DNA from: Mucilaginibacter roseus
GTDB taxonomy: Bacteria > Bacteroidota > Bacteroidia > Sphingobacteriales > Sphingobacteriaceae
DNA length: 64,000 nucleotides
Direction: 5' to 3'
Assembly (NCBI RefSeq): GCF_021215455.1
Contig: NZ_JAJPWV010000003.1
Span: forward strand, 496,001 to 560,000
Every line of letters begins with the position of its first letter. The first letter of the stretch is position 1. The position numbers and the translations under genes are program-made. The notes under the pieces were generated by a model that had not been told where the DNA came from, searched no databases, and was given only the letters and a program-made list of their open reading frames with translations. Below are positions 3,263 through 8,687 of the stretch, piece after piece.

Positions 3263-4198
3263 ATGACTATTACACAGCTGGAATACATTGTAGCCGTTGA
3301 CACTTACCGCAGTTTTGTTACTGCTGCCGAAAAATGTTTTGTAACGCAACCAACCTTGAGCATGCAAATACAAAAGCTTGAGGACACTTTAGGCGTAAAA
3401 CTTTTTGACCGCACCAAGCAGCCCGTTATACCTACGGAAATAGGCATAGAGGTGATTAGCCAGGCGCGGGTTTTATTGGCCGAAAGCGAAAAGATAAAAG
3501 AGATCATCAGCGATAGACAGAAGGAACTTTCAGGTGAACTCAAAGTAGGCATTATCCCTACCATTGCGCCGTACATACTCCCTAAAATCATCACCAGCTT
3601 TATTGAGAAATATCCGCAGGTAAAGCTGGTAGTATGGGAGCAAACCACCGAGCAGATCATACAGCAATTAAAGATGGGCATGATTGATTGCGGCATCCTC
3701 TCAACACCGCTGCACGAGGCCTCACTAACAGAAATACCAGTGTTTTACGAAAACTTTGTGGCCTACGTATCGCGCGATAGCAACCTGTTTAAAAAGAAAA
3801 GCATTCAGCCTGATGACATTGATGTAGAAGAGATATGGGTACTTAACGAGGGGCACTGCATGCGTGAGCAGGTTTTGAATATTTGCCAGCGCCGAAAAAG
3901 CACACGCGGATTTCAGCATTTTGAATACAACACGGGCAGCGTTGAAACATTGAAACGCATGGTTGACCAAAACAATGGCGCTACCATACTACCAGAACTC
4001 GCCCTCGCCGATTTGACAGAGAAACAACTGGACCGCGTGCGTTACTTTAAATCGCCGGAACCGGCGCGCGAGGTGAGCATCGTTATTCCGCGCAACTTTT
4101 TAAAGCGCCGCATGATTGAGGCTCTCAAAAATGAGATACTTGACTTTATACCCAAAAGGCTAAAAACCAAGAAAAAGAAAGAGATAATGGATATATAA
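3263..4198 (+). CDS. oxyR: LysR-type hydrogen peroxide sensor/regulator OxyR
   Basis: This is a LysR-family transcription factor of 311 residues. The winged-helix DNA-binding domain occupies residues 1-60 (TQLEYIVAV, SFVTAAEKCFVTQPTLSMQI). The rest is the LysR substrate-binding fold. The segment NEGHCMREQVLNIC places cysteines at 199 and 208, the same numbers and nine-residue offset as the peroxide-sensing disulfide pair of E. coli OxyR (GHCLRDQ...C). That makes OxyR much more likely than a generic LysR activator. In the family, oxidation switches on catalase, Dps and peroxidase genes. It stands alone between two terminator/intergenic regions and has its own promoter with a symmetric repeat. 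The C-terminus is a lysine-rich tail (KTKKKKEIMDI). Confidence 0.9.
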   Translation: MTITQLEYIVAVDTYRSFVTAAEKCFVTQPTLSMQIQKLEDTLGVKLFDRTKQPVIPTEIGIEVISQARVLLAESEKIKEIISDRQKELSGELKVGIIPTIAPYILPKIITSFIEKYPQVKLVVWEQTTEQIIQQLKMGMIDCGILSTPLHEASLTEIPVFYENFVAYVSRDSNLFKKKSIQPDDIDVEEIWVLNEGHCMREQVLNICQRRKSTRGFQHFEYNTGSVETLKRMVDQNNGATILPELALADLTEKQLDRVRYFKSPEPAREVSIVIPRNFLKRRMIEALKNEILDFIPKRLKTKKKKEIMDI

Positions 4199-4331: not shown

Positions 4332-5339
4332 CTATCCCTCTATCTCCACTTCCGTTACCGGGTGGCCGGTGCAGGTGAGTATCCAGCCTGCGGCTAAGTC
4401 TTCGGCGGTGAGTACGTCGTTACGCACCATTTCGACTTTGCCGCTTTTACAAATAACCGCGCAGGCTGAGCATACGCCTGCTTTGCAGCTGTAAGATAAT
4501 TGAATACCATTTTGCAGGGCAGCCTGTAATATGGATTGATTTTCCCCGGCTATAATATCATAACGCTCGCCCCTATAGTTAATGCCTACTTTTTGGGGCG
4601 GATAATTAAGCACAGGCGGGGCAACGGCAACCGTTTCTATTACAAAATTTTCTTTACGGATGCGCTGTGGTTCAATGCCCATATACAGCAAAGTCAACCT
4701 AAGCATACGCATATAAGCGAATGGCCCGCACAGATAGAAATCAGCATTGAGCAAACCATTAGGCGTGTGCTGCCTAACAAGCTTTTCAGCCATAATATTA
4801 TTAAGCCGGTTTGCTTCGCTGCTTAACAGGTGTATTACTTTTAACCTTTCTGGATGCATAGCAGTCAAGTCATGCAATTGCTGCTTAAAAATAATTGATA
4901 ACTCGCTAAGACTGCTATAGACAACAGTTATACTACTCTTGCCATCTCTCGCCAAATGATATTTCAGTTGCGAAAATACCGGCGTAATACCGCTCCCGGC
5001 GGCGAATATGATAATATCTTTCTTTTGTTCGGGACGACTGATAAGAAACCGGCCGGCCGGTTCAACAGCGCGCAAGACATCGCCAACCTTAACCTTGGTA
5101 AACATAAAGCGTGATATTTCGCCGTTGGGGATGCGCTTTACGGTAATAGCCAGCAATGCTTCATCAGGTGATGAACTGAGCGAGTACGATCGGCGTATTT
5201 CCTCATGATGATGATCAAATACCAGCGTAATAAACTGCCCGGCTTTATAGCTTACCTTTTCGCCGGTTACATTGCTCAGGTAAAACGTTGATGTATCAGC
5301 CGTTTCTTGTTCTATCTTCTCAACCCTTAACTGTAGCAT
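4332..5339 (-). CDS. FAD/NAD(P)-binding reductase with C-terminal [2Fe-2S] ferredoxin domain (PaaE-like)
   Basis: A 335-residue flavin reductase of the ferredoxin-NADP reductase superfamily. The N-terminal FAD domain has RRSYSLSS (R-x-Y-S/T motif), and the NAD(P) domain has AAGSGITPVFSQL. The C-terminal plant-type ferredoxin carries SYSCKAGVCSACAV plus a final TCTGHP, i.e. the C-x4-C-x2-C...C ligand set for a [2Fe-2S] cluster. The same domain order occurs in PaaE, the reductase of phenylacetyl-CoA epoxidase, and in related one-component reductases. No paaABC genes are nearby, so its electron acceptor is unknown. It is translationally coupled to the upstream oxidoreductase (TAATG, overlap of one base at 5339), and so is the second gene of a two-gene redox operon. 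Confidence 0.85.
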   Translation of the reverse strand: MLQLRVEKIEQETADTSTFYLSNVTGEKVSYKAGQFITLVFDHHHEEIRRSYSLSSSPDEALLAITVKRIPNGEISRFMFTKVKVGDVLRAVEPAGRFLISRPEQKKDIIIFAAGSGITPVFSQLKYHLARDGKSSITVVYSSLSELSIIFKQQLHDLTAMHPERLKVIHLLSSEANRLNNIMAEKLVRQHTPNGLLNADFYLCGPFAYMRMLRLTLLYMGIEPQRIRKENFVIETVAVAPPVLNYPPQKVGINYRGERYDIIAGENQSILQAALQNGIQLSYSCKAGVCSACAVICKSGKVEMVRNDVLTAEDLAAGWILTCTGHPVTEVEIEG

Positions 5340-6343
5340 TAGCCTATTCTTAACACCAACTTACCAAACTGACTTGAATCATCCATCTTCCTGATTGCTT
5401 TTTCAGCCTCAGCTAACGGAAATATTTCATCAATAACCGGTTCAATTTTATGCTCGGCGATGAATTGGAGCATCTGCTCAAATTCGGCGGGAGCGCCAAG
5501 CGTTGTACCTAATATACTGATGTGATTCCAGAATATTTTTCGACCGTTAAGCTCTGGAATACTGCCTGCGGTGCCGCCCCAAAATACGATGCGTCCACCC
5601 GGTTTGCATATGTCAATCAGCTTTTCAAAGCCCTGCCCTAACGCGCTATCCAAAATCACATCAAAACCACCACCAGATAACTGGTGCAACTGCTCCGCCC
5701 AATCCTGAGCCTTATAATTAACCCCTGCCGAAGCTCCCAACTTTCTTGCCCGTTCAATCTTTTCGGCCGAGCCGGATGTTACAAAAACCTGGCAGCCTGC
5801 AGCTAAAGCATATTGCAAGGCAAAAACCCCGGTTCCGCCGCCAACGCCGGTTATCAGCACCTTATCTTCTTTTTTTGCCTGCCCTCTGGTAAACAACGCC
5901 CGAAAGGTGGTTAAACCCGCTACGGGTAATGTTGCGGTTTGCTCAAAATCAAGATGCATGGGTTTGGCTTGTATATCGGTTACCGGTACGGCTATATACT
6001 CAGCTAAAGTGCCTTGGTCGGGCGGCAAACCTATAATGTTAAAGTCTTTTGATTGGTGTTCAGTACTCTCCCCCCAACCGCGCGCGGGGTATATTACTAC
6101 ATCCTTACCAATCCAGTTGCTGTCGGCATCACTGCCTGCTTCGACAACTGTACCCGCACCGTCAGAACCGATTACCGCAGGATAAGCTATGCCCGGATAT
6201 TTACCTTGCGTTATCCACCAATCGCGACGGTTTAATGATGCCGCTTTTAACTGCACCAGCACTTCTCCGGGTTTGGGCGTCGGTTTATCAATATCTTTTA
6301 CGGTTAATGGCTGATTCAGCCCTTCCAGTACAATGGCTTTCAT
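5339..6343 (-). CDS. Zinc-independent MDR-family quinone oxidoreductase / alcohol dehydrogenase-like protein
   Basis: A 334-residue medium-chain dehydrogenase/reductase. The N-terminal GroES-like domain (SLNRRDWWITQGKYP, VIGSDGAGTVVEAG) lacks the structural-zinc four-cysteine lobe, which points to the quinone-reductase branch. The nucleotide-binding domain shows LITGVGGGTGVFALQYA. Family members reduce quinones or enals with NADPH. It is the first gene of a two-gene operon with the ferredoxin-type reductase, with stop and start overlapping as TAATG. It is divergent from the LytS/LytTR system across 175 bp that contain a likely LytTR operator, so regulation by that system is plausible. Confidence 0.8.
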   Translation of the reverse strand: MKAIVLEGLNQPLTVKDIDKPTPKPGEVLVQLKAASLNRRDWWITQGKYPGIAYPAVIGSDGAGTVVEAGSDADSNWIGKDVVIYPARGWGESTEHQSKDFNIIGLPPDQGTLAEYIAVPVTDIQAKPMHLDFEQTATLPVAGLTTFRALFTRGQAKKEDKVLITGVGGGTGVFALQYALAAGCQVFVTSGSAEKIERARKLGASAGVNYKAQDWAEQLHQLSGGGFDVILDSALGQGFEKLIDICKPGGRIVFWGGTAGSIPELNGRKIFWNHISILGTTLGAPAEFEQMLQFIAEHKIEPVIDEIFPLAEAEKAIRKMDDSSQFGKLVLRIG

Positions 6344-6434
6344 AATTAAACTTTACTTTATATTTAGGCGGAGCAATCACTGTTCCGAAAACCCGAACTA
6401 AGCGACTATGGGGTAAAACTATCAAAATTCCGCT

Positions 6435-6477
6435 TTGGTCACATTTATCGCACTGTTGGTCACATTTTTTACTTTTG
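6435..6477 (+). promoter_or_regulatory. 12-bp direct repeat with 21-bp period (putative LytTR operator) abutting a -7 box
   Basis: TTGGTCACATTT occurs twice without mismatch, at 6435-6446 and 6456-6467, so the copies lie on the same face of the helix two turns apart. LytTR regulators typically bind two direct repeats with this 21-22 bp period. The -7 box TACTTTTG follows at 6470-6477, and no -33 TTG sits at the normal distance, which fits a promoter that depends on a bound regulator. The kinase ATG is at 6519. The other side of the spacer serves the divergent oxidoreductase operon. Confidence 0.7.
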
Positions 6478-6518
6478 GAAAACCGTGTTGCGTACCATTG
6501 CCCTAAACAAATCACCTT

Positions 6519-7988
6519 ATGCTTAAATCTCTCCAAACTAAATTAAAAACCGAAACGCTCATTGAGCTTTTATTGGTTGCACTCGTCATCTTAGCTACGT
6601 TTATTGTTCACCTGTTTGATGCAGCAGATATTGTTAAAATCAATCGTTTAAACGGCATTCCAACTACCTACGGGTTTTTGCTTGCCCCGGCTGCCTTTAA
6701 ATATGCCGTAACATTTGTATGCTATTTGTTATTGTGCGCTTACGTAGCCCCGGAGTTTAAAAAACCAGAAGGCCAATCTGCCAGGCCGGCGGTTTTAGTA
6801 TATGCGCTGATAGCAGTATCGCTGTTGCTTAACTTAATCAGCATTTACTTTGGTGCGCTTCTGGCGCTCAGATTATGGATCATCCTGTTTACACGGACTA
6901 ACAGATCAGCTACTAATGCCTTAAATTACGAAAGCGGATTACTTACCGCAAGCTGGATTTTTTTGACCGTAGCTTCTGTATTTGTTGATATAAACACAGT
7001 AATAAGGGTTTTTATTTTATTGGTAATACCCGCTTGTATCATTGTTTATCTGTACGCCATGTACCGCATATTGCCACGAAATCAACATAAAAAATGGCTT
7101 TTTTTAAACTATTTTATAAGGATTATGCCTTGTATAGCTCTTTCAACATTAGTAACTATACTAACAGTAGCTCAATTAAAAGAACACAATTACCCTTACA
7201 GTTTAAATGAAGCTTTCAGGCTCGATCTGCTAAACTTTAAAGTTCAAGGGAACGATATTGAAGCGCTGCTGGTAATATGCCTATTGACACACTTACTGTT
7301 TGTAATTCCTTTTGCCTGGAGCAATTTTAAAAGCCGTAACAGAAAATTAGACCAGCAAATAAACGAGCTTAAAACCGAACTTGGGCAAACCGATGCCAAC
7401 CTTAACTTTTTAAAATCGCAGATAAACCCGCACTTTTTATTTAACGCCTTAAATACTTTGTATGGTACCGCCTTGCAGGAAAACGCGGAACGCACCGGCG
7501 AGGGCATACAAAAGCTTGGCGATATGATGCGCCTAATGCTCCAGGAAAACATGAAAGATAAAATAGCGCTGACCATGGATATTGATTATCTCAACAACTA
7601 CATCCTGTTGCAAAAGCTACGCACCGCTACATCTGCCAATGTTGTAATTGAGGCCGAGATAAGTAATGATAATCCTGATCTGCTAATAGCGCCTATGCTG
7701 CTTATCCCTTTTGTTGAGAATGCCTTTAAGCATGGCATCAGCCTTATTAATCCTTCATTTATAAAAATGAAACTGGTAACCAGCGGCAATACCCTTTACT
7801 TTGATGTGCATAACAGCATTCACCTGAAAAGCGATAATGACCCAGAAAAGGGGCAAAGCGGCATCGGGCTCGAAAATGTGAAGCAACGCCTGAATCTGCT
7901 TTACAACAACAAGCACGAATTAATTATCCGCGAAACCGCGAAAGACTTTTTTGTACACCTTACCTTGCAGTTAGAAGATGCCGTTTAA
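6519..7988 (+). CDS. LytS/YehU-type sensor histidine kinase
   Basis: The product has 489 residues. Roughly residues 15-270 form a hydrophobic multi-helix membrane domain with no recognisable ligand-binding fold. The His_kinase domain carries LKSQINPHFLFNALNTLYG, with phospho-acceptor His305, followed by a HATPase region (MLLIPFVENAFKHG and GIGLENVKQRL). This is the arrangement of Bacteroidetes LytS-like kinases. It phosphorylates the LytTR regulator encoded 9 bp downstream. The direct repeat upstream suggests autoregulation. The stimulus is unknown. Confidence 0.9.
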   Translation: MLKSLQTKLKTETLIELLLVALVILATFIVHLFDAADIVKINRLNGIPTTYGFLLAPAAFKYAVTFVCYLLLCAYVAPEFKKPEGQSARPAVLVYALIAVSLLLNLISIYFGALLALRLWIILFTRTNRSATNALNYESGLLTASWIFLTVASVFVDINTVIRVFILLVIPACIIVYLYAMYRILPRNQHKKWLFLNYFIRIMPCIALSTLVTILTVAQLKEHNYPYSLNEAFRLDLLNFKVQGNDIEALLVICLLTHLLFVIPFAWSNFKSRNRKLDQQINELKTELGQTDANLNFLKSQINPHFLFNALNTLYGTALQENAERTGEGIQKLGDMMRLMLQENMKDKIALTMDIDYLNNYILLQKLRTATSANVVIEAEISNDNPDLLIAPMLLIPFVENAFKHGISLINPSFIKMKLVTSGNTLYFDVHNSIHLKSDNDPEKGQSGIGLENVKQRLNLLYNNKHELIIRETAKDFFVHLTLQLEDAV

Positions 7989-7997
7989 CTTTATAAC

Positions 7998-8687
7998 ATG
8001 ATTGCCATTGCCATTGATGATGAACCCATCGCGTTAGATATTGTACGCACGCATGCCCAAAAAGTACCCTTTATACAAATGGATGGTTACTTCACAAACG
8101 CTTTTGAGGCACTCGGCTATTTGCAGCGCAACAAGGTCGACCTGATATTTTTAGATATCAAGATGCCCGATATCAGCGGAATAGACTTTATGAACAGCCT
8201 TACCAGCCCGCCTATGGTGGTGTTTACAACAGCCTATTCAGAACATGCGGTAAAAAGCTTTGAGCTCAACGCGGTAGACTATCTATTAAAACCATTTTCG
8301 CTGGCGCGATTTTTAAAGGCCTGTAACAAAGCCCTCGAATTATATGAACTCAGAAACAAGCAGCATGTGACAGGTGCGCCCGAAGCTATTTTTATAAAGG
8401 ATGGCTACGAGCAAGTAAAAGTAGCTATAAATGATATCCTGTTTTTAGAAGCATCAGGAAATTATGTGAAAGTTCATCTGCATAACGATAGTTCCCTTAG
8501 TACCCGAATGACGATTGGCGATATGCTGTTGATGCTACCCTCCAAGTCCTTCATCCGCATACACCGGGCTTACGTGGTAGCCCGGAATAAAATAAGCCGG
8601 TTTGACCGCTACCAGGTGTACATTGATAAACATACGGTACCCATAGGGGCTACTTACGCGCAATGCCTGCATGATATGCAATCATAA
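7998..8687 (+). CDS. LytTR-family response regulator
   Basis: The product has 229 residues. The receiver domain runs to about residue 120, with Asp53 in DLIFLDIKMPD as phospho-acceptor, the Thr in VVFTTAYS, and the Lys in YLLKPFS. A C-terminal LytTR DNA-binding domain follows (about 130-229; IFIKDGYEQVKVAINDILFLEASGNY and SFIRIHRAYVVARNKI). It partners the kinase encoded just upstream. LytTR proteins bind paired direct repeats, and such a pair sits upstream of this operon. A bidirectional terminator follows the stop codon. Confidence 0.93.
   Translation: MIAIAIDDEPIALDIVRTHAQKVPFIQMDGYFTNAFEALGYLQRNKVDLIFLDIKMPDISGIDFMNSLTSPPMVVFTTAYSEHAVKSFELNAVDYLLKPFSLARFLKACNKALELYELRNKQHVTGAPEAIFIKDGYEQVKVAINDILFLEASGNYVKVHLHNDSSLSTRMTIGDMLLMLPSKSFIRIHRAYVVARNKISRFDRYQVYIDKHTVPIGATYAQCLHDMQS

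Follow-up and report, generated by a model that had tools for sequence, protein, structure and literature searches.

A repeat pair of 21-bp period, probably a LytTR operator, at a fixed distance from the predicted start of a kinase-regulator operon in Mucilaginibacter roseus and its relatives

Why should the same 12-bp word stand twice, letter for letter, in the short gap that separates a histidine kinase gene from its divergent neighbour? The question is raised by a window of 64,000 nucleotides, the whole stretch of DNA analysed, from Mucilaginibacter roseus. Between the start of a quinone oxidoreductase gene (5339 to 6343, minus strand) and that of the kinase gene, a gap of 175 bp, the word TTGGTCACATTT is found on the plus strand at 6435 to 6446 and again at 6456 to 6467; these are termed below the distal and the proximal half-site. 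Both copies are exact and their period is 21 bp, just as the first-pass annotation of this DNA had described them. Taken singly the word is banal, with eight matches in the window at up to two mismatches against 7.9 expected, so that the unusual part is the pairing. Among exact direct repeats of at least 12 bp with a period of 13 to 40, this pair is the only one in the window, and 40 first-order Markov simulations of the window produced a mean of 0.175 such repeats at any of these periods and of 0.025 at periods 20 to 23. The whole genome (4,193,356 bp in 12 contigs) contains two exact copies of TTGGTCACATTT, namely these two. A search of the genome for the paired motif, which the annotation had suggested, thus recovers the exact pair at its own locus, but it yields no further targets: pairs of TCACATTT with up to three mismatches number 65 (67 in the reversed control) and pairs of TTGGTCA with up to three mismatches number 621 (644 in the control), with no excess in either case. 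Five of the TCACATTT pairs of this genome have two mismatches.

The genes found immediately downstream suggest what might bind there. The first gene of the operon (6519 to 7988, plus strand) codes for a LytS-type membrane histidine kinase of 489 residues (PF06580, E 3.8e-22). Nine base pairs after its stop codon comes, on the same strand, the gene of a 229-residue response regulator (7998 to 8687), which combines a receiver domain (PF00072, E 2e-18) with a LytTR domain (PF04397, E 7.1e-17; 61.9 bits for a cut-off of 22.6, residues 139 to 224) and is the presumed ligand of the repeats. When solved structures were searched with the regulator, receiver-domain matches came on top among the best 60 of 187 matches, and the three structure alignments inspected included no LytTR-domain alignment. 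Direct repeats of 21-bp period are typical of LytTR proteins, as documented in three papers (PMC11347149, PMC6193735, PMC4847170), and the period is exactly that of YpdB (PMC4847170). Together with the Pfam families His_kinase, Response_reg and LytTR identified here, this supports the view of the first annotation that we are dealing with a LytTR-type operator placed at the promoter of its own kinase and regulator.

Building on this, we consider it very probable that the repeat pair is the operator of the LytTR regulator encoded at 7998 to 8687, which, once phosphorylated by its kinase, would bind there for positive autoregulation, an interpretation that comparison of sequences suggests. The membrane kinase would phosphorylate the regulator, a step presumably needed for what follows. 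The regulator would then occupy the two half-sites, two turns apart on the same side of the helix, and the two bound molecules would sit immediately before RNA polymerase; the promoter comprises a -7 box, TACCATTG, and no -33 element. There the bound regulator would activate its own kinase-regulator operon, creating a positive feedback loop. A positive autoregulation of this type, acting through such repeats, has been demonstrated for HdrR; according to the same source, LytTR systems that regulate themselves have repeats departing from the broad LytTR consensus that has been published (PMC6193735).

The pair and its spacing are conserved. Of 149 genus genomes, 32 have the exact pattern TCACATTT-N13-TCACATTT, which makes 35 sites, compared with three for a control using the reversed pattern. 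When the spacer was allowed to vary from N6 to N20, the genus displayed 47 pairs, 35 of which have the N13 spacing; the remaining 12 fall on eight other spacings, none of which has more than three pairs, and the excess at N13 has a probability of about 2e-31 under uniform spacing. Among 300 genomes of the order, 106 have a pattern made slightly more stringent, against four control matches. The family consensus of the half-site can be written TTC[G/A]TCACATTTTT. In a sample of the phylum the exact pattern was present in 15 of 395 genomes; among the 24 places listed, five come from the family of M. roseus itself, and of the 19 others many are nothing more than (TCACATT)n tandem runs, which implies that the exact site is rare outside the family.

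The conserved distance that separates the pair from a promoter box locates the putative operator more precisely. The first-pass annotation had the proximal copy ending 2 bp before a -7 box, TACTTTTG (6470 to 6477, plus strand). This candidate had to be rejected, as it is not conserved in relatives, whereas TACCATTG (6493 to 6500, plus strand), located 25 bp past the proximal half-site, is conserved. The latter is a variant of TAnnTTTG, given as the -7 consensus of the phylum in two studies (PMC7366714, PMC9723704). In the genus, a sequence TAnn[A/C/T]TTG begins 24 to 26 bp past the proximal half-site at 28 of 30 sites, the distance being exactly 25 bp in 24; further afield in the family, a TAnnnTTG box was found 23 to 27 bp past it at 46 of 60 additional sites. 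In Flavobacterium psychrophilum the -7 box occupies positions -12 to -5 (PMC9723704). If this placement holds here, transcription is predicted to start near 6505 on the plus strand, with a 14-nt leader, and the half-sites would span about -70 to -59 and -49 to -38, a position where an activator would sit. In related soil bacteria, too, the repeat pair is found at a fixed distance from the predicted transcription start, and the putative operator lies just upstream of the promoter. As for the claim that a -33 element is missing, none is indeed conserved between half-site and box in the alignment of the sites, but this absence is not telling by itself, since in Flavobacterium johnsoniae no -33 motif was identifiable either (PMC7366714). 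It is this geometry that points to a regulator raising the expression of its own operon. In a further observation, 10 of the 31 box-bearing genus sites (L060, L062, L065, L070, L072, L075, L085, L086, L111 and L112) have an ATG exactly 4 nt past the -7 box, which is where transcription is expected to start, so that the kinase mRNAs made from these ten may be leaderless.

The association of the site with the kinase was then read in both directions. Starting from the site, a kinase homologue lies just downstream at 29 of 30 genus loci, a subset of the 35 genus sites. Starting from the kinase, and retaining the 37 genus genomes covered in both searches (a kinase being counted at E <= 1e-60), the exact site is present in 9 of the 17 genomes that have the kinase and in none of the 20 that lack it (Fisher P 2e-4). 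The other eight kinase-bearing genomes have diverged forms at all eight loci: six display words resembling TTCATCCCA whose spacing is the same or nearly so, and two have mixed or weak forms. The regulator follows suit. In the kinase-regulator sets that we fetched, its gene is found either directly 3' of the kinase gene or past a gene for a thioredoxin-fold protein; in two of them (L142 and L175) this intervening protein has roughly 500 residues, and it may be part of the sensing step. Upstream of the kinase relatives at L162 to L167, the repeats are TTCATCCCA or mixtures, not TTCRTCACA, and the corresponding regulators look like a subgroup of their own as regards the LytTR domain. At L064/L147 the site is retained ahead of a broken kinase frame, whose beginning resembles that of the kinase of L195; no full-length frame was found at L064.

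In the family at large the site also precedes genes of other kinds. We picked by hand 60 family sites and scored the first gene with an automatic kinase motif: a kinase comes first at 33 of them, and since L195 and L236 proved on reading to be kinases as well, the count rises to 35 of 60. Elsewhere the first genes code for outer-membrane beta-barrel proteins, alpha/beta hydrolases (about 296 residues), two DUF4932 proteins and one thioredoxin-fold protein. At two sites no target is convincing: L240 lacks, within range, any reading frame of at least 100 residues, and L241 has an unassigned frame only and no box in range. Longer stretches were read for 17 loci chosen among those with a non-kinase first gene, and four of these (L249, L250, L252 and L264) have a barrel, an ABC ATPase and an ABC permease in a row. 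The site heads a barrel-kinase-regulator set at L259, and a kinase-regulator-barrel set at L195. Within the genus, the second site of one genome (G066, at L177) precedes a barrel and a GLPGLI-type (Porph_ging) protein.

Can these observations be accounted for otherwise? The best surviving rival keeps both operator and regulator and reverses the sign of the control, the bound regulator blocking its own promoter. There is a precedent in CoxC, a LytTR protein that represses from repeats overlapping a -35 box (PMC11347149), and the proximal half-site of M. roseus reaches to about -38, near the place that a -33 element would take. However, the half-sites are both clear of the -7 box and of the predicted start, and the lack of a conserved -33 element is what would be expected if an activator made up for it. 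The same layout is moreover seen ahead of effector-like genes, the barrels and the hydrolase, and this suits induction. Negative autoregulation seems unlikely to us for these reasons, and positive autoregulation remains our preferred reading.

The binder might also be another transcription factor, of the LytTR type or not, controlling the kinase-regulator operon from outside. The 4.2-Mb genome codes for ten LytTR proteins, so that a paralogue could bind the operator, and several loci with the site have neither kinase nor regulator in the stretch read. Against this stand the absence of the exact site from all 20 genus genomes deprived of the kinase, the organization of L259 and L195, where kinase and regulator themselves lie behind the site, and the fact that the sole copy of the pair in the M. 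roseus genome is at a kinase-regulator pair. We hold control by an outside factor to be quite improbable, and keep the regulator of the operon as the likely ligand. The paralogues are informative in their own right. Some LytTR operons of this genome, not all, carry what looks like a 21-bp operator of their own, with a different word. At L102 (contig 2, near 909,340), TTCGTCGAAGAA-N9-TTCATCGAAAAA has a period of 21 and lies about 190 bp before the kinase of that locus. Of the 149 genus genomes, six have pairs of this type, TTCRTCGAA-N12-TTCRTCGAA, for which the control gave no match, and a kinase motif is present downstream in all six (L242 to L247). As judged by eye, genes resembling an ABC permease and an ABC ATPase lie upstream of the L102 kinase, in the opposite orientation. 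The remaining eight of the nine other LytTR loci of the genome have weak upstream repeats or none, which shows that the 21-bp layout is not universal.

A third alternative is that the operator serves mainly the divergent quinone-reductase/ferredoxin-reductase operon, as an element of redox control. The intergenic region is shared, to be sure, and one close relative keeps the arrangement. To weigh this we compared eight named loci with clear relatives of the kinase (L030 to L037, mostly from Mucilaginibacter), leaving out a distant match, L038. The pair of divergent genes is kept in one of the eight, that of Mucilaginibacter sp. UR6-1 (L030), where quinone reductase and ferredoxin reductase are 86-87% identical to those of the window; there the repeat pair is kept as well, differing from the consensus by three mismatches, and is followed exactly 25 bp further on by a TAATATTG box. 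Loss of the repeat in a relative with the same gene order would have spoken against the operator first proposed, and UR6-1, which retains genes, pair and box, behaves in the opposite way. In total, the pair or a degraded form of it lies upstream of the kinase at seven of the eight loci, each time with TAnnnTTG exactly 25 bp past the proximal half-site; Filimonas zeae (L036) retains the box and the distal half-site, but the proximal one is degenerate, and no site was seen at L037, whose kinase match is partial. Yet the divergent genes are absent from the locus in seven of the eight relatives, and six of these seven still keep the site. Furthermore, the conserved -7 box is oriented towards the kinase, and 6344 to 6470 contains no CAAnnnTA, the form that such a box takes on the minus strand. 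The notion that the divergent operon is the natural second target must consequently be given up: it is unlikely to be a target of the regulator, its genes are probably mere neighbours of the site, and an operator devoted mainly to them is highly improbable. Finally, a chance repeat or a decayed satellite, which the chance-level frequency of single-word near-matches in the window might evoke, hardly deserves consideration, given that the family conserves the pair, its spacing and the geometry of the promoter.

LytTR operators with autoregulation are already known as a kind of system, and several members of the class may be set beside the present one. Closest in layout is YpdB/YpdA of Escherichia coli, where a LytS-type kinase and a LytTR regulator likewise go with two direct repeats of 21-bp period, of 10 bp in the case of YpdB, GGCATTTCAT-N11-GGCATTTCAT as read from an oligonucleotide (PMC4847170); its sites, however, are at a separate target gene, yhjX, the repeat sequence is unrelated, and the promoters are of the sigma-70 type, not of the TAnnTTTG type. 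HdrRM and BrsRM of Streptococcus mutans have direct repeats immediately before the promoter that drives their own operon and a positive feedback, as we propose here (PMC6193735), but their regulators are paired with an inhibitory membrane protein in place of a histidine kinase, and the repeats, of 9 bp with a 12-bp spacer, have another sequence. AgrA of Staphylococcus aureus also brings a LytTR domain onto two direct repeats upstream of its own operon promoter (PMC4227749); unlike here, the proximal repeats are centred near -60, the promoters have -35 and -10 boxes, the function is quorum sensing and the sequence differs. CoxC and RcoM1, involved in CO oxidation, share direct repeats two helical turns apart, bound there by LytTR (PMC11347149), but these are three repeats of 8 bp, the regulators are one-component proteins, and CoxC is a repressor. 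In our searches of open-access papers we did not find the operator sequence, the fixed promoter geometry or the family-wide targets: a query with GTCACATTT returned nothing on the subject among the matches listed, and no open-access paper was found that deals with LytTR together with Pedobacter or Mucilaginibacter.

What the system might be for is a matter for more tentative thoughts. It is possible that the Sphingobacteriaceae possess an undescribed regulon, governed by a LytS/LytTR system that amplifies itself and whose operon often includes an envelope protein of thioredoxin fold. This system would induce outer-membrane barrels together with an ABC exporter, as well as DUF4932 proteins and secreted alpha/beta hydrolases, plausibly when the envelope comes under attack, and paralogous LytTR systems would read TTCRTC followed by ACA, CCA or GAA at the same 21-bp period. 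If this were true, related words at a common period would amount to a code from which the specificity of LytTR domains could be read, an idea that comes from one alignment inspected by eye. LytTR systems are common in the phylum, as the ten proteins of this single genome illustrate, and an operator whose geometry is fixed and whose specificity is high identifies target genes across more than a hundred genomes. It also points to a promoter worth fusing to a reporter in a hunt for the signal and, with the paralogues, provides natural pairs of LytTR domains and sites for understanding how a beta-sheet domain chooses its DNA.

The named relatives provide two minor observations. In strain OK268 (L031, upstream of position 4000), a stretch with TTCGTCACATTTTT is duplicated further upstream, creating a third half-site. 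Compared with its counterpart in UR6-1, the regulator of the window is 86% identical and the kinase only about 60%, which indicates that change is much faster in the sensor than in the regulator.
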